From Amylostereum areolatum (taxonomy: Eukaryota > Basidiomycota > Agaricomycetes > Russulales > Stereaceae), in contig SAXG01000047.1 of NCBI GenBank assembly GCA_012932865.1, positions 1 through 64,000 of the forward strand: a stretch of DNA of 64,000 nt, written 5' to 3'. Both the position numbers and the translations under genes were made by a program. The notes below the pieces were generated by a model. The model was not told the origin of the DNA. It saw nothing but the letters and a program-made list of their open reading frames with translations, and ran no database searches. Of the stretch, positions 14,014 to 27,478 are shown piece by piece (within the stretch, counting starts at the first letter, position 1; each line of letters opens with the position of its first letter).

Positions 14014-14617
14014 TCATGCAAAGTTATCACTTGCGCTGCAGGGAGTGCGTTCCTTCAGTAACATATTTAAAATCGAGGTCAGACGGACGCACGTCTCACG
14101 ACCAAACAGGTTGTCGAGGAAGTTCTGGATATCCGGGGGGTACCGAGCTTGAAGAGGTTGAATAAATGGAGGTGTCCGCGCCTGTACAGGCTCAACAGCG
14201 AGGTCACGCGTGAATAAGCTGTTCAAGAAGTTCTGGATATCCGGGGGATACCGTGCGGTGACGACCTCGGTGCGACTGAACAGGTTATTGAAGAGCCTCT
14301 CGATGTCGGGAGGGTAGCGCGCGGTCACGGCGACGTTGCGGCTGAACAGGTCGTTGAGGAAGCGTTCGACGTCCGGGGGATAACGCTCTGTGACAACCTC
14401 GTCGCGGTTGAACAGATCGTTGAGGAAGTTTTCGACATCAGGCGGGTAGCGCGCCTTCAACTCGACGGCATACCTATTAAACGCCCAAAGCGTCATCAGT
14501 AAGAGTACACACAAGGTAAGGGCACCATGGGACGCACGAAGGGGTAGGCGCCGCGATGACAGGTGTGACTAGCGCGATAGCGGCGGCGAGGAAGGCGGTA
14601 ACGGATGAAACACGCAT
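14014..14617 (-). CDS. Secreted RYPPD-repeat protein (164 aa model)
   Basis: Three exons (14526-14617, 14093-14473, 14014-14035) join in frame. The start gives a signal peptide, MRVSSVTAFLAAAIALV then TPVIA, with likely cleavage before APTPS. Exon 2 then encodes five repeats of about 22-36 residues built on RYPPD[VI]-x2-[FL][LF]-[ND]x-LF-x-R, for example RYPPDVERFLNDLFSR and RYPPDIQNFLDNLFGRE. One divergent RTPPF unit lies before the last copy. Each copy follows Ala-Arg or Glu-Arg, so a monobasic processing site is possible; there is no KR pair. No family is recognised. The protein resembles fungal secreted repeat-peptide precursors. The exon 1 donor is uncertain: a 52-nt intron (14474-14525) was preferred over a 37-nt one. 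Intron 2 (14036-14092) can be read through in frame. Confidence 0.65.
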
Positions 14618-14772: not shown

Positions 14773-17073
14773 GAACGAAAAATGCAGCATCAGTAGGCTA
14801 ATTGCGGTGGGAGTAATTAATCAGCTGCAGTGCTTCATGGTGATTCACGTCAGCCGTCAAGGGTGTGTGAAGGTGAAACGTGGTACTTATCTTCTAACTC
14901 ATATTTTCACGAAACGTCTGCGTCAGGGCGCGGCGTCATGTACGGCTGACAGAAACGAAGATTAAAAGTGGGGGCATCGGAAGGAACTCCATCGCTGGAG
15001 AGGGGGGGGGGGTACGCACCAGAGAGTATTTACAACCGGGTTTTCGCCCGACGGCGTGGAGCTCTGGAGTAGCGATGATGGAGCTTAGGGACATCGGTGG
15101 TGGGGCCGCTGGCAGCGCGCCTAGTCTAGGCGCAATCAGCACCTCATCATAGGAGCACCCGTTTTCAATCCTGAACGGTCACGTGTGAAGGCTATCACCG
15201 AAAACGCGTATCGCGTTCGGCGCCTATGACCAGCGCTTTGGGCGTGAGAAGTTTGAGAGCTCGAACTTTCGAGCCTTCGAGGACGAGATGTTTGCGAGAT
15301 GTCCTCGACTCCTCGCACTCTGCTGCCATTCTTTCATGACCCTCGGTCCTCAGATACGTATAAAGTATCCAACTGGAGTGGAACAACACACTGCCCACGG
15401 TTATCTCCATAATTATGTCCCCTAGTATACTAACAATCGTACCGCGGTCTCGCTATTAGCCTCTCCGAGCGGCAACGTCTTAGCACAGGGAGCCGACTCA
15501 ACTGTTTTGCTTACCTTTCTGGCGGATAGCGAACACATCTCCCTCACTACACTTGAGTGTCTTTCAGCTGCCGATAGTGTACCAATGATAGTTATAATTC
15601 ACCTCATTTTCCACCATCCAACATGAAGAAGCATGATCTGTGTGTCTCTACGGTCAATTACATGCTTTGTTCACATTGAGGATGCGCATCTGAGTACAAG
15701 TATATGGCACTGGCAGGCATGCACAATGCCCTCACGTGCTTGAATTCGGCGTCTAGTGACGGATTTGACATCGTCACATGCTCGGAACCTGCTCAGAATT
15801 GCCCTTAAGTCCTAAACACCGACGTTCTAAATAGAAATCGGGTGCTCCTATGACAGGAGCGTGTTTGCGCGCAGACCCTACACATCATCACCGCCGCCCC
15901 AATTCCCAAAAGGTGAATATGATGTTTTAGGGTTTGCAAAGGAGACTACAGCGCGCCGGGCCCATCGCTGTGACAGATATGTCACGTTGAACGTGTTCAG
16001 ATCGTTCAGATCAGGCTGGCACGGCACTCGCAATTTGCCGGGACGTAACAGTCGGTGACCCCCCAGTCACGGTTGGCCGACTGAGATCCGAAATGAGATT
16101 GTAGGTGATGGAGCGTTGGGGTAACCGCCGTGGAGCGTTGGTGTAACTGCCGTGGGGCGGTTGTAAATACTCTCTACCTTTCATGAATTGACCCCTGTCA
16201 TATACTGACCGAAATGTCGTTATAATATCGATCCAATATTGTAATTTTGATGGGGAGATTGTGCGTGGAGGCTGCTGCCAGCGAGCGCAGTCATGAAGGC
16301 GCGGAGCGAAGAGTTGGACGTCTTCACTTGGATTACCGCCATCCGATCGAGGCAAGCCGTGTAACATCGGCCCAGAGGTCCTACGAACATCCGGGCTATC
16401 ATTCATATCTGGAAACTGGTTTCGAAAACGAGGAACTGGGGGCCAGCCCCAAGGTTTTCCACTCGGACACCAGTGAAGACGCCCAAAGAGTTGCCCGCCA
16501 AAAGTCGGCCTCCGTCCATCGATTTGTACAAGTCAAGATGCATCACAGCCGAGCCAGTTATAGAGGGGAGAGCTCAAGGAGATTTCGTGGTGTGAATGGA
16601 GGGATGTCTGGCAGCACGCTGGTCAACGTGAAATTAGCAAGCCGCGATGGTTCGTACGAAGGCCCGGTCAGCGGTTTGGAGAGCTTGCTCCGCTTGAATT
16701 ATGTCCGAAGTCCGTCTACAATGTTGGCTCCCGGGGGACGGGTCTTCACAAATCTTGTCCGTCGCTTGACGAGCGCAAAGCGGCGAAACTGAAAGTGAGC
16801 GTGGGACGAGCGAGTCGGAGCGCCGATCACCACCAAGTTAGCGTCGACGTGAAAAATCACAACTCGGACAGATATTAGAATGGCTCGGCGCGTCATTCGA
16901 TTGTCGTTAGGAAGGTTACAAAGTCCTACTAGTACGGTACGTATCCAAACATATTACCCTCTATTATACACCATGATCATGAAACTTCACCACGAACTGG
17001 AGAACCGCCGGCGGCGCGTCCAGTTCGAGTACATCGTATATCGTTGTCGTCCGCCGTTATGTCGTTCAAATAT
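14773..17073. other. Long intergenic region between the two secreted-repeat genes
   Basis: About 2.3 kb, mostly without coding character; it is AT-richer around 15400-15850. An open frame of 181 codons at 16247-16792 (+) has no family resemblance. Contains a run of G near 15001 and a 22-bp direct repeat at 16109-16152. Confidence 0.4.
16109..16152. repeat. Two-copy 22-bp direct repeat
   Basis: Units 16109-16130 and 16131-16152, TGGAGCGTTGG-[GT]-GTAAC-[CT]-GCCG, differ at two positions. A third partial unit (TGGGGCGG) follows. Confidence 0.6.
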
Positions 17074-18581
17074 TTACTCAATGTCGTTGATGGCGCGGGC
17101 GCTGAGGGCGTCGACGAGAGCGCTAATAATGAACCATGATCAGAACGCGAGCAGTGTGAAAAGGAGCATAGAACATACTCTCTGTTGAAGATGCGGTTGA
17201 GACCGCCCGAAGTGAGACCGCTCGCAGCACCGTCGATGAGACCGGCGACGACGGCTCCAATACGCTTTTCATACTCGCTGCAACGGATGTCAGTGGCAGC
17301 CATCTCCCAAGAACGAGGTCACGTACTCTCTGCCGAAGATGCGGTTGAGACCGCCCGAGGTCAGACCGCTCGCGGCACCGTCGATGAGACCCGAGACAAC
17401 AGCCCCGATGCGCTTCTCATGCTCCCTACAAACAATGTCAGTGGGAACCATACCCGATGAAAAAAAGTACTTACTCCCTGTTAAATACGTGGGAGAGACC
17501 GCCCGAGGTGAGACCACTTGCGGCGCCTTCGATAAGACCCTCGACGACAGCCCCGATGCGCTTCTCATGCTCCCTGCAGAAGATGTCAGTAAAAGCCATA
17601 CCCGATATAAAGCACACTTACTCCCTGTTGAAGACGTGGGAGAGACCTCCCGAGGCGATACCACTCGCGGCGCCTTCGATAAGACCCTCGACGACAGCTC
17701 CGATGCGCTTCTCTGGTTGCTCCTCGCGTCCGAAAATGCGCGAGAGCCCGCCAGATGTCAGGCCGCTAGCGGCGCCATCGATCAGGCCCTCAACGACAGC
17801 TCCGATGCGCTTCTCTGGCTGCTCGTCACGTCCGAAGATGCGGCTGAGACCGCCGGAGGCGAGACCGCTCGCGGCGCCGTCGATGAGACCCTCGACGACA
17901 GCCCCGATGCGCTTCTCATGCTCCCTGAACAACGTGTCAGTAAAAGCCATGCTCGGCGAAAAAGTCACTTACTCCCTGTTGAAGACGTGGGAGAGACCAC
18001 CTGACGTGAGGCCGCTGGCGGCGCCTTCGATAAGGCCCTCGACGACAGCCCCGATGCGTTTGTCGTGTTCCCTACGCGTACTTTCAGCACCAACACAAGA
18101 TCCACGGGGACAAGCAGCTCACTCTCGACCGAAAATGCGTGAGAGACCACCCGACGTCAGGCCACTGGCAGCGCCCTCGACAAGACCCTGAACGACCGCC
18201 TGGATGCGCTTTTCAGGCATTTCATCACGGCCGTAGACATTGAATGAGACCCCAGCTGGGACAACGTTGCTGGTGGTTCCTTCGGTCAGACCCGCGGTGA
18301 TGGAGTTAAGGCGTTTCACGGGCCTGTAGGACGAGGGGCGGATGAGCGGGGAAAGAAAACGGACCACAGCATACGCACTGTGCGCTGGGGATGCCCTGCG
18401 GAGTGTACTGCTGGGGAATAGTGGAGGCGGCCCTACGCTCGAAAGTAAGCACCGATGTCATCGAAAGTAACAGGAACACGCACGGTACATTGCCAGGAAT
18501 AATGAAAGGAGCTGCGAAGGTGGGGCCGACCTGGGCGGCGACGACGACAAGGGCGAGGATGTTGGCGGTGTTGGCGTACAT
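17074..18581 (-). CDS. Kex2-type secreted repeat-peptide precursor (366 aa model)
   Basis: Nine exons join in one frame to 1101 bases: 18489-18581, 18379-18437, 18123-18323, 17973-18071, 17622-17924, 17475-17573, 17327-17425, 17179-17277, 17074-17122. Exon 1 is a signal peptide (MYANTANILALVVVAAQVGP, TFAAP). From exon 3 on there are one divergent and eight near-identical repeats. Each begins with Lys-Arg: KRIGAVVEGLI[DE]GAASGL, then [TA]SGGLS[RH][IV]F[GN]R[ED]. Linkers are EEHE, EEHD, SEYE or EQPE before the next KR. Nine KR sites suggest Golgi Kex2 cleavage into peptides of about 31-32 residues; the tail is ALVDALSARAINDIE. Exons 4, 6, 7 and 8 are exactly 99 nt and each is one repeat; exon 5 holds three. 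All introns after the first are phase 2. No UstY-like or other modifying enzyme is nearby. The role of the peptide (signal, antimicrobial, surface) is unknown. Confidence 0.85.
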
Positions 18582-18766
18582 GTTGAACGACGAAGTTTGG
18601 ATTAAGGGAATGTATAGGTGACGGATAAGGATATTCGTGAAGACGAAGTGAAGCAAAAGGCGAAGAGAGGGGAAGAGAAAGAGAAGAGGCGAACCAGCAC
18701 CTAACGACGAAGAAAATACGAATGTGAGCGACCGAAGCTGGAGAAAAGGAGACATTTGGATCCACC

Positions 18767-18774
18767 TTTATATA
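18767..18774 (-). promoter_or_regulatory. TATA box of the Kex2-type precursor gene
   Basis: TATATAAA on the minus strand about 186 bases before the ATG at 18581. An upstream in-frame ATG at 18755 lies only about 12 bases from this box and would be upstream of transcription start, which supports the 18581 start. Confidence 0.55.
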
Positions 18775-20098
18775 GAGCGGAGGCTGACCGGGTGACCGAC
18801 CGCGAGGACAAATTCCGCCCTGCAAAACCGTCTGGAAAGGAGGGGCGACTCTGGGCGGTTTGAACCAGCTACATGGCGCAGGTTTAGTGACGGAATAATC
18901 AAAACGCAACATGGCAACTACTTGGCATCGTCGATCTTTCGTGATGGGCCTATGGGTTGGCGCGTAGCGGCGTAAGAGTAACGTTCAGAGGACGAGCAGT
19001 GATGGAATGGCTCTGGATGAGCCCGACACAAGCCGACACACCTTACAACGATCAATGGACAGACAACTTGGCCGTCAATTTGCAGTGGGTTGACAGGCCC
19101 AGCCGTTCTGGGCTCGGATCTGCACGGATCGCGCGAAGGGAGCAAGAGAGACGGCGTGGACGCAGGACAGCCTCCCATGCCGAACGACGACGGAGTCCTT
19201 GGGTCCGACCTCGCTGCGGGAATTTCACACGAGCTCAGATCAGTTCTCGAGCCTTGCATGACTCCGACTCGTGAGCTTGTTAGCCTTGTCTTGATCTTTG
19301 CTTTACTGGGCAGGTTCGGGGGTGTGATCAGCTGCAAGTATCGAGAATGAAGGGGGATGTGGACGTAACTACAAGACTGGGCAGCCGTGCACCGCACGCG
19401 ATCTTCTTTTTTGAGCAGTCTGGGTTTATGCTGCAATCGATGCAACATCTTGAAGGTGGAAGTTCGACGGGCAAACATTGTCTGAAAAGCCGACCCGGAG
19501 AGCTGGCGAGTGTAATTTGTCGTTGACAATGATCCCGGTTACCGAGGAACGGCTCGGCGAGAACCGTCGCGCCGCGCTCCGGATACCGCACCGGTGGCCT
19601 CGAGTAAACCATTCCATACCGTGGTAGTGAAAAAAGGAACTTTCGGTCGATGCAGAGTAGGAAAATCAACAGCGTATCGACGTATTACAGCTACATCCCT
19701 GGCTACGCGGGCGAAGCCAGGCGTGCGGCCTTGCACGGCGTTCTTCAGAGTTCAAACATGAACTTCAAAAACCCTCAGGGTCGTTATAAAAAATACAAAT
19801 CCCCAATCCCCACGAGGGATCGGGACATCTGTACAGCATACATTATGTGATTGGCGCGATGCAATTTACAAATTTGTTGCCCCGTCGACGACACGACATG
19901 TCATGTCAATGTCAAAGTGTCGGTGAATTACAGGCGACCAGATCTAGGTCCTTGTCTGCACAGGTCTGCACTTTGTAAATCTGAGTCCTGGCTGAGTCCT
20001 GGCATTCACAGAGAGCGTCGTATGATAAAACGATATGTAACCTACTTTACAAGCTCTTACAACTACTTACTTATGCCTCCGACACGACGTGGTCTAGT
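18775..20098. other. Intergenic region upstream of the peptide precursor and downstream of galactokinase
   Basis: About 1.3 kb, short open frames only. A small 11-bp tandem (TGAGTCCTGGC twice) lies at about 19981-20002. Nothing else recognised. Confidence 0.4.
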
Positions 20099-23058: not shown

Positions 23059-24629
23059 TTACGCGCTATAACCAATTCCAGATGAGGAGTCCAACGTATT
23101 GCGGCCAACGGAATCTTCAGTCAAGCTGTGGGAATATCTCGACCCGCTAGATAGTTTCGGGTAGTATTCGTCGTCTTCCTGGAACTGTATGCGCCCGGTA
23201 GATATCCCAGAAGCTTCAGGGCCACTGTAGGCAACTACGGGATTTTGAGTAGACAAAATATGCGAGAGGCTCGATGCGTCTTCGAGGTCCTTTCGCGTGT
23301 TACAGATCAGAGCATGAACCCGGTGGTAGCAAACGCAACTCACTCGGATAATGGGAATTAAACCGTCGTCATGAGCAATCGCAAGATCGGCGTCCGATTT
23401 TTAGGGAGGTGAAGCTGTGTGCTGAAAGGCGCCGTGAAGCCTACCTTCAAGACGTAGTCCAATAGAATTTCGAGTGGGTCACAACACTGCGCGTCAGAGT
23501 AAGAAGCTAGCGCCATGGAGAAATCGAAACACACGCACAGGCTCAAGCTCAGAGTCGACAAGGACTTCATTTCTGACACGGAACTAGTCATATCCTCGCC
23601 CTCGCCTCGGTCCTCTGAGTCGTCCTCGTTCGGATTACGGGGCTCCGCATTGGCGAAGAGCTTCTTCCCCAGGAACCACCGATGTTTGACTCGGTATCGA
23701 CGCATGAATATACACTGATCAGGGGGTATAACACGTCCATGGTAAGCACTAGCGTAGATTAATGGTGAAAAGGTGTTGCTAGAGGAAGGCGCAACATCTG
23801 TAGACGGAGATGTTTCACGTTCAGGGTCTGCGCCCGGGCCGGCAGAAGCTTGGGTTGGAACATCGACCAACTCGTCTTGTTGGGGACCCCACCCGTAATC
23901 TGCGCCGTCAATGTTGCTGAATCTGACATTGACGGCAAGCTTGATTCCTGATACCATCGCGATGTCAGCCTCAAGGGACACGCTAGCCTCAAATTCTGTA
24001 TTGCAGAACACCGCATTTGCCCACGATTTGACAAGGTCGCGGCCTGAGACGAGCATGATCTGCTCCATCTTTAAGCCCAGGCCGTTCCTCACCGTAAAGG
24101 CGTGCCACCTTTCAATGTTCTTGATGATGTAGTTTTTGTAGTCTTGCATACAGAGGATGTTTTCCACGTCAACTTTTCCTGCGACGGCAAGAATAGCACC
24201 CTGGTGTCGTGTGGCCGTGAACGAAGCTGTCGCTCCCGCAAGCATGGGTCTGCAGGCATAAGTATATTCAATAACCCAGCCGATACGATAACGGGACATG
24301 CACGCACCCCTCAGCCCCGAAGACGACACCGACGGACTGGACACCCCCAGACTTGTAGACATTCTGCGCACGATATAGCTTCGAGATCTTACGGCTTCGA
24401 TCGATGGGGAGGGGTTCGAAGTATTCTGGTAGGTCCGTCGCCTGTTCTGGGTCATTCTCCGTAAGGTGTATGTTTGAAACATGCCCATGTGCATGTAACC
24501 GACGTCTCCTACGCGCACAGCCCGCTTGCGTCTGTTCGTAACCGCATCGATGCCTGGGGTTGGCTCCCAAAGTGCGTATCCGCGGGCAAGCGCACAGAGC
24601 TTGGCAGGATATACCTCGTGAGCCGCCAT
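23059..24629 (-). CDS. Unnamed basidiomycete family protein, paralog A (3' end probably damaged)
   Basis: Paralog of the gene at 25991-27478. It starts MAAHEVYPAKLCALARGYAL, then KRAVRVGDVGYMHMGMFQ. After introns come MLAGATASFTATRHQGAI, WHAFTVRNGLGLKMEQIML, ASVSLEADIAMVSGIKLAVN, FSNIDGADYGWGP, and RRYRVKHRWFLGKKLFANAE, ending near DPLEILLDYVLK. I know this family as widespread and uncharacterised in Agaricomycetes, with no named domain. In paralog B the next exon starts after a CAG acceptor and encodes SDANFAIAHDDD. Here the matching exon (SDADLAIAHDDG) is present, but the acceptor position reads TAA instead of CAG and a stop precedes it in frame. Without splicing the frame ends at 23358. 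The further exon to 23059 (for example YYPKLSSGSRYSHS) may or may not be used. Confidence 0.6.
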
Positions 24630-25233
24630 GCTTGCATTGGCAAAGAGGTCAAGGCAGGGTATGAACGCCACAAGTGGGCCACAAAGCGTGAGAAAGCTTC
24701 TTCGCACTGCCACGGGGTCACGTTCCGAAGCGCAACGATCAGCCTGAGGGTGAGAGTGACTGAGAGCCTCGTATCAGCTCCCTGATAAACGTTTTCGCAC
24801 GGTACCTGCACTGTACACAGTATTTTTAGTATGTGTATAGGCGCGAAGAACCCAGAAGGAGAACGAAGGTCGATCAAGGACGGTCCAGGAGTCTGAAGTC
24901 GAGGACGATGCTCACTGATCAGATCAAAGCTGTGAAGGTTGGTGCAATCCTATATCAGAACCTTGGAAAATGCTGAGGGTATGACGGTATTAAACACTGG
25001 CGACTTGAGGGCGGTGAGCAATCCTAAACAATGTCAGCGTTTATCCCGGACGAGGTTACGAGCTGCATGAGCCCTCGAGGCTGCTGAATGTCTCGTATAT
25101 CGTGCAGTACGATGGGTTGGAAATGGATATCTGCATACAACGGAGGACGATCTGTGTACGGAGAGGATATAGTAGTCCAATGACCGGAAGAAGTTATTCA
25201 GATAGCGCCCGTGGACGCTCACTAGCACGATGG
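24630..25233. other. Intergenic region, nothing recognised
   Basis: About 600 bases upstream of paralog A and downstream of the DUF6535 gene. No clear element. Confidence 0.4.
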
Positions 25234-25990: not shown

Positions 25991-27478
25991 TCATTCGGGA
26001 GGATGCTTCCTGGGACCTCCTACGTTAGCGGGTATGATACAAGGCACTAGTGATAACCGGCGCACCAGCAGGGCCTTTACGAACGATCGCAGGTCGTTTG
26101 TGAGCCAATACTTGAGCCATGCCCCAAGCGTCGTCGATTTCCTATCAAGGGGCATGAGCGGCTGAAACACCGAGACATGAACGCGACTTACCTTCAGAAA
26201 CGACACCAAATCGTCGTCGTGGGCAATGGCAAAGTTGGCATCAGAATTCTGGAGTAGACAAGGATTAGACATATTCACATAGAAATCGGAATGCATGCCT
26301 CCAGTATGTAGTCCAAAACAGCCTCGAGCGGATCATGGTACTGGACAAAAAGTGAGGAAAACTGGCATCGGAGAAAGCTGAGATATACCCACAGGATCGG
26401 GCTCGCAGTCGACGAGGACTTCTCTTCCCAGCTCGCCCTCGCCCTCTCCGTCCTCGCCGTCCTCCATGTTCCTCGCCTCCGCGTTGGCCATAAGCTTCTT
26501 TCCAAAGAACCGCCGGTCCTTCACCCGATATCGCCGCAGAAAGACACACTGGTCGGGCGGCATATCTGAGCGGTAAACATCGGAGAAGCTTGAGGGGGAT
26601 CGCGTGACGCCGGAGGGGATCACTGCATTCGTCTGTGGAAACGCGTCGTTGTCAGAATTGGTGCTGATGGCTGGAGTCGCAGTGGGAGTGCGGGTGGGGT
26701 ATTCGACGAGTTCGTCGGGGTCCGGGCCCCACCCGTAGTCAGCCCCGTCGATGTTACTGAAGCGGACGTTTACGGCAAGCTTGATCTCGGCGATAGTCAT
26801 GATCTCAGCCTCGAGCGACACGCTCGCTTCGAAGTCGGTGCTGCAGAACGCGGCGTTCGCCCAGGATCGGACGAGGTCGCGGCCGGTGACGAGGATGATT
26901 TCCTCCATTTTCAGTCCCATGCCGTGCTGGACGGTGAGAGCGTGCCAGCGATCGATGTTCTTCAGCATGTAGTCTTCATAGTTTTGCTTGTGGAGCACGT
27001 TCTCGACGTTGATTTTGCCTGCGACGGCGAGAACTGCGCCCTGATGTCGCGCGGTAGAAAACGAGGCGCTGGCGCCCGCGAGCATTGGACTATTCGTATG
27101 CGCTCAGCTTGCCTAACGCACGAAAATTAGAGCGAAATAGACCCACCCTTGAGCTCCCACTACGACGCCCACGGACCGCACACTCGAGGATTTGTAAACG
27201 TTCTGGGAACGAGAGTGTTTGGACACGGCCAGACGGCGGTCGAGCGGGAGGGGCTCGAAGTACTCCGGGAGAGTCGTCGACTGCTCGGGGTCGTCGTGCT
27301 CAAGGTGGATGTTGAACAGGATCTGGAACATGCCCATGTACATGTACCCGACGTCGCCGACGCGTACCGCGCGTTTGCGCTTGTCCGTCACCGCATCGAT
27401 GCCCGGAGTCGGCTCCCAAATTGCGTATCCTCTGGCGAGGGTAGAGAGTCGTGCGGGATAAACCTCATGAGCTGCCAT
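25991..27478 (-). CDS. Unnamed basidiomycete family protein, paralog B
   Basis: Close paralog of the gene at 23059-24629. It starts MAAHEVYPARLSTLARGYAI and WEPTPGIDAVTDKRKRAVR, VGDVGYMYMGMFQILFNIHL, then LPEYFEPLPLDRRL. After an intron come MLAGASASFSTARHQGAVLA, WHALTVQHGMGLKMEEIIL, VTGRDLVRSWANAAFCSTDF, FSNIDGADYGWGPDPDEL, and RRYRVKDRRFFGKKLMANAE. The end is EAVLDYILE joined to NSDANFAIAHDDDLVSFLK by a 50-nt intron (26249-26298) whose donor is GC (GAG|GCATGC) and acceptor CAG. The final few codons and stop are uncertain; the open frame ends at 25991. No domain is named. The conserved core suggests a folded soluble protein. Confidence 0.65.

Follow-up and report, generated by a model that had tools for sequence, protein, structure and literature searches.

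A putative KEX2-processed repeat protein of Amylostereum areolatum with single-repeat exons, and a family of related genes in which its dibasic borders are an exception

KEX2-processed repeat proteins (KEPs) of fungi are defined by an N-terminal signal peptide and at least three similar repeats with dibasic KR, RR or KK sites between them, according to the sections of Le Marquer 2019 (PMC6339444), Umemura 2020 (PMC7329392) and Vogt 2022 (PMC9769878) drawn on here. Published repeats of 25-50 residues form a recognised size class. The consulted part of Umemura 2020 (PMC7329392) lists 7878 KEPs in 1345 of 1461 strains, with 5.30 per basidiomycete strain, and sorts them into 838 KEP types and 2560 stand-alone KEPs without homologs. 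Since thousands of KEPs are known and many have no homologs, a new repeat alone is ordinary. Two known cases are Rep1 and Ece1. Rep1 of the basidiomycete Ustilago maydis yields linear hydrophobic peptides of 37 residues, which assemble into amyloid-like fibrils and govern the properties of the hyphal wall. Ece1 of Candida albicans is the precursor of candidalysin, a linear, membrane-active and cytolytic product. Both are likened to the gene reported here by description, not by sequence, and fibril formation by its peptides would be a guess.

The stretch of DNA analysed (the window) comprises the first 64 kb (positions 1-64,000) of contig SAXG01000047.1, here called C125, from the Amylostereum areolatum assembly GCA_012932865.1 (57.1 Mb, 182 contigs). 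On its minus strand, positions 18581-17074, lies a putative repeat-peptide precursor gene (the window gene). The gene model consists of nine exons of 98, 54, 201, 99, 303, 99, 99, 99 and 49 nt and encodes 366 residues with nine Lys-Arg (KR) sites and nine repeats. One repeat is divergent, the other eight are regular and near-identical. A KR precedes each of the nine repeats in both alleles (see below). The protein starts with a hydrophobic stretch ending in AAP, ends with a tail of 16 residues and contains no Trp and no Cys. It shares the predicted signal peptide, the near-identical repeats, the KR between them and the repeat size with fungal KEPs as described in the cited sections (PMC6339444, PMC7329392, PMC9769878). 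In addition, the genome encodes at least one Kex2-type P domain (one match, on C161). The coordinates, protein length, KR sites and repeats agree with a sequence-only reading of the same DNA, whose proposal of a Kex2-type precursor is well supported by this anatomy and by the KEP definition in the consulted sections of PMC9769878 and PMC7329392.

Exon 1 (18484..18581, 98 nt) contains the start codon and a predicted signal peptide (MYANTANILALVVVAAQVGPTFAAP), recognised by visual inspection and by similarity to those of relatives. A candidate TATA-like stretch (CTCTATATAAAG, 18766..18777, minus strand) is read from the sequence ~190 bp upstream of the start codon. Exon 2 (18379..18432, 54 nt) encodes a non-repeated propeptide stretch. 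Exon 3 (18123..18323, 201 nt) harbours the first KR, the divergent repeat, the second KR and the first regular repeat. Exons 4 (17973..18071), 6 (17475..17573), 7 (17327..17425) and 8 (17179..17277) each consist of 99 nt and one repeat with phase-2 borders, and exon 5 (17622..17924, 303 nt) carries three fused repeats, just as read before. Exon 9 (17074..17122, 49 nt) encodes the short acidic tail and the stop codon. This tail had been called short and unrelated; it is short indeed, but "unrelated" may be wrong, as the proteins of relatives, inspected by eye, appear to have similarly short and acidic C-terminal ends.

All eight introns are of the GT-AG type, 48-56 nt long and in phase 2. Four repeats each forming one phase-2 exon set the window gene apart from the KEPs described; neither "intron" nor "exon" appears as a word in the main text of Le Marquer 2019 (PMC6339444) or Umemura 2020 (PMC7329392). 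The donors of introns 6, 5, 4 and 3 (17474, 17621, 17972 and 18122) read GA|GTAAGT or GA|GTGAGC in phase 2. Owing to this sequence and phase, retention of any one of introns 3 to 6 would place a stop codon directly after a complete repeat. Conceivably, retention leads to shortened yet usable precursors.

A second, syntenic copy of the window gene is found on C127 (40850-42358). Window positions 3488-29477 align with C127 in five blocks with 97.3-99.8% identity and two gaps on the C127 side, and C127 is hence taken as the other haplotype. The model is reproduced there: splice sites, frame, repeat number and the nine KR are identical, and all eight introns are again GT-AG and in phase 2. The two alleles differ by four silent and five amino-acid changes, the latter located in the tail (three), the divergent repeat (one) and one regular repeat (one). 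Taken alone, this ratio shows little sign of constraint.

Among the eight regular repeats (28 pairs, which are not independent as the copies are related by descent) the mean dN is 0.139 and the mean dS 0.973, and dN is smaller than dS without exception. The peptide was kept while silent sites turned over, i.e. the repeats of the window gene are under purifying selection. Every one of the nine lysines in the protein belongs to a KR. Shuffling the protein 100,000 times gives 0.59 KR on average and five at most, compared to the nine observed. The codons of these sites vary synonymously among the copies (AAA/AAG, CGC/CGT).

The introns carry a trace of how the repeats multiplied. Introns 4 (17925..17972, 48 nt), 5 (17574..17621, 48 nt), 6 (17426..17474, 49 nt) and 7 (17278..17326, 49 nt) resemble each other in all six pairs, with scores reached by 0 to 4 of 1000 shuffles, whereas the remaining 22 intron pairs of the gene all stay below a z of 3. 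Therefore, repeat and intron were duplicated together as one unit of ~147-150 bp. The introns mark the copying of the repeats and may help it.

Between the two border arginines each of the eight regular repeats has a core of exactly 26 residues (IGAVVEGLIDGAASGLTSGGLSRIFG type), though the spacer varies. Gly occupies core positions 7, 11, 15 and 19 in all eight. The GxxxGxxxG count of the core is reached by 3.1% of shuffles, and that under a wider definition of the glycine zipper by 8.0%. Modelled as a helix, the first 16 residues are amphipathic (0.15% of shuffles), but the full 26-mer is not (moment reached by 81%). A low-confidence structure model of exon 5 (single sequence, pLDDT 56.5) predicts one helix for each repeat, interrupted at the linkers. 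The regular cores are free of Tyr and Cys, and their charge is about neutral to slightly negative.

The window gene protein was compared to known domains and structures. Eleven Pfam families appear as weak candidates, all below their own cut-offs, and were rejected. PDB sequences give no match to the protein and three weak ones (E 0.17-0.64) to a composite of its paralogs. The profile of garvicinKS_B (NF038165), a bacterial and leaderless but likewise short and glycine-rich peptide, matches residues 10-26 weakly in three of the eight peptides scanned (E 0.0096 to 0.035). The whole protein scores 28.3 bits and single peptides 14.1-15.9 (less than half), compared to a curated cut-off of 35 bits; this resemblance is a lead, not membership. 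No viral relative was confirmed in a viral contig collection with the window gene as query, and no prokaryotic one in a genome contig collection queried with the relatives.

The genome was then searched with the window gene protein and subsequently with the repeats of the matches; the best candidates were scored, such that locus counts are lower bounds. Relatives were found at no fewer than six further loci. Their repeats are of the RFPP...GAAVAGGVASG type and follow the form RFPPAVKAVGAAVAGGVASGVAGSVASNLLSREELDA or an abbreviated version of it. These are C147 with C100:57k, C175 with C156, C166 with C100:413k, C8 with C169, C117, and C2, which is shorter and more distant. The paired contigs match by 97.5-99.2% in their best blocks and are treated as alleles for this reason. 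The score of the window repeat against the repeat consensus of C147, C175, C117, C8 and C166 is reached by 0, 0, 3, 0 and 6 of 5000 shuffles, respectively; a second repeat type of C147 fails this test (389 of 5000). The signal peptide of exon 1 resembles those of C117, C166, C156 and C8 (0, 0, 0 and 1 of 5000 shuffles; C147, C2 and C13 were left out of this comparison).

The RFPP genes share the predicted signal peptide, the glycine-rich core and the Arg-spacer-Arg border with the window gene. They differ in that their repeats open with (A/T/E/S)R-FPP and have no Lys before the Arg, whereas RFPP is absent from the repeat start of the window gene and KR-I is found instead. By its other features the window gene is, as judged from sequence comparison, a divergent member of the RFPP-repeat family. 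In C147, C117, C8 and C2 the repeats lie within one open frame. C166, a relative with exon structure, has a phase-2 intron within the codon directly preceding EYEAR, and the phase-2 intron of the window gene interrupts the codon directly preceding EYEKR, EHEKR or EHDKR. We take these inter-repeat introns to be the same intron position.

Additional candidates were some Pfam families on the paralogs: Phage_AlpA on C100:57k (29.5 bits versus a curated 21) as well as OTCace_N (33.3 versus 29.9) and DUF1547 (27.5 versus 25) on C13. In each case no single stretch passes, so we attribute these values to the summation of weak scores across repeats, and do the same for SMK1_alpha_su on C100:57k (26.8 of 27 bits).

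Genes with a similar layout but RYPPD repeats were found as well. One of them is a neighbour at a distance of 2.5 kb from the window gene (14095..14617, minus strand; start codon ~14617, repeats 14460-14095) with the predicted signal peptide MRVSSVTAFLAAAIALVTPVIAAP and single Arg borders. Its repeat region is identical on C127 and C136. The other one, C13 with C170, also has RYPPD repeats and the layout of the window gene. Homology to the window gene is not significant for the repeats (C13 565, neighbour 331 of 5000 shuffles), and neither is that of the neighbour's signal peptide (338 of 5000). Because they failed the shuffle test, the RYPPD genes are called look-alikes.

In relatives and look-alikes Arg precedes FPP, FAP or YPP in all 107 repeats scored over 13 stretches, a count that includes alleles and the C136 duplicate, excludes C2 as well as the neighbour's copy on C127, and missed at least one repeat of C175 (a DNA pattern gives nine, the count eight). 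Lys before this Arg was not found in any of the 107; the residues are Ala (86), Glu (10), Thr (8), Ser (2) and Val (1). Dibasic processing is therefore not a property of the family. A second Arg is found further upstream, separated by a short spacer that is mostly acidic, in 69 of 70 units from ten stretches (excluding C166, C100:413k, C136 and C2); in the sole exception the spacer was longer than the pattern allowed. Some spacers are non-acidic, for example those of the neighbour. For the window gene, it is the Arg opening each repeat, at the outer end of the spacer, that is part of a KR (nine of nine cases). In C13 and in C170 it is the other Arg, at the inner end, that is part of a KR (6 of 7 units). 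Cleavage after a single Arg has been suggested for KEPs expressed in Pichia in the consulted part of Vogt 2022 (PMC9769878). Both border arginines may be processing sites with the spacer being discarded.

Our favoured reading, held with somewhat more confidence than doubt, is that the window gene encodes a secreted KEX2-processed repeat protein giving rise to self-associating, surface- or membrane-seeking peptides, and that its family has expanded in this genome. The precursor would enter the secretory pathway, be cut in the Golgi after Lys-Arg and then be trimmed, releasing eight near-identical glycine-rich peptides and a divergent one. A cut at the KR alone would yield products of 31-32 residues with an acidic tail, the size proposed before. 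Additional cleavage at the inner Arg would remove the acidic spacer and free the 26-mer. The earlier size is hence one of two reasonable predictions. Outside the cell the peptides might act as self-associating helices that seek surfaces or membranes. We infer secretion, cleavage and product from gene anatomy, and for the surface- or membrane-seeking action suggested by the core the chances appear about even.

The main rivals to this action are antagonism and signalling. Instead of being surface material, the freed peptides could be membrane-permeabilising antagonists of bacteria, other fungi or small animals, comparable to leaderless bacteriocins or candidalysin. They are short, cysteine-free, glycine-rich and prone to form helices, residues 10-26 show a weak resemblance to the terminal part of the garvicinKS_B profile in three of the eight peptides, and candidalysin demonstrates that a KEP product can be cytolytic. 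However, that profile scores far under its cut-off with five of the eight peptides showing no match, the about neutral to slightly negative core speaks against such a role, and synthetic peptides from other Agaricomycete KEPs had no antibacterial activity. We regard antagonism as unlikely. A signalling role, be it between hyphae or towards a plant or another partner, as known from alpha-pheromones and MiSSP8, appears less likely again. Near-identical copies would raise the dose of one sequence, and mating factors and mutualism modulators are among the known KEP products. Yet no STE13-type XA/XP dipeptide follows any of the nine KR (IG, IQ or LN do), described pheromone-like KEPs are unlike this protein with its lack of Trp and Cys, and several core positions are permissive in sequence.

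That the secreted repeat protein is used uncut with incidental KR sites would be in line with the complete lack of Lys at the borders of the 107 repeats of relatives and look-alikes. It is difficult to reconcile with nine of nine lysines being placed in a KR at repeat borders while the codons change synonymously between copies, and we consider it improbable. A dikaritin-type RiPP precursor, giving rise to a modified cyclic peptide, would have the same layout, and the genome does contain UstYa-type (DUF3328) genes. None of their 31 genome-wide matches is located on C125 or C127 though, and the regular cores offer neither Tyr nor Cys, which renders this explanation very improbable. Given the missing STE13 signature and no UstYa match on C125 or C127, the protein belongs to neither of the two subtypes, pheromone-like or dikaritin.

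The KEP reading with peptides directed to surfaces or membranes remains the one we prefer. As a KEP the window gene is unsurprising; less ordinary is the surrounding family, in which its dibasic borders are the exception. It illustrates how a dibasic precursor can arise inside a family mostly without dibasic sites. A broader scenario, which we offer tentatively and consider rather doubtful, is a genome-wide repertoire of precursors for secreted peptides, glycine-rich or amphipathic, that follow a common plan (Arg, core, Arg, mostly acidic spacer, Arg). Most members would be cut after a single Arg, and Kex2 dibasic sites would have arisen separately at opposite spacer ends in two branches, namely at the outer Arg in the window gene and at the inner Arg in C13. 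If true, KEP screens based on dibasic sites would see one or two of nine such genes. Should the relatives be processed as well, surveys demanding KR, RR or KK undercount the secreted repeat peptides of fungi.

Repeats were also counted by their start [FY][PA]P in both copies of each relative or look-alike locus. C147 has 16 and C100:57k 11 repeats, C175 8 or 9 and C156 2, and C166 10 compared to at least 11 in C100:413k, where the frame breaks in runs of C. Equal numbers were found for C8 and C169 (5 each) as well as for C13 and C170 (8 each). Overall, the repeat number differs between haplotypes at three of the seven loci compared; the window gene is not among them. Assembly errors in tandem repeats are a possible cause of these differences. 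In the broader scenario, with repeat numbers differing between the haplotypes of one individual, the dose of each peptide would be variable. The sequence-only reading had suggested that copies can be gained or lost as whole exons and that repeat numbers be compared. Between the alleles of the window gene (9 and 9) there is no such change; the suggestion is supported by the relative with exon structure, as C166 and C100:413k differ in repeat number.

Some further observations concern the same contigs. The presumed alleles C147:163.4-168.1k and C100:55.8-59.7k have open frames of 646 and 446, i.e. 200 residues apart. Compared to C156, C175:65.4-69.8k carries ~1.2 kb of inserted DNA in the exon for the signal peptide, and its repeats contain extra sequence as well. 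Within the window, ~1.15 kb (15020-16176) are absent from C127, and C136 matches the window by 99.96% up to position 15043, where matching stops within the stretch compared. Two similar tandem genes are located on the minus strand at 23358-24713 and 26333-27478, with ~70% DNA identity between the copies according to the C127 comparison. Finally, a large inverted repeat spans ~42.6-57.8 kb of the window: the frames of 42.6-49.6 kb recur nearly unchanged, in reversed order, at 50.9-57.8 kb. It may be real or may represent an assembly join of two haplotypes.
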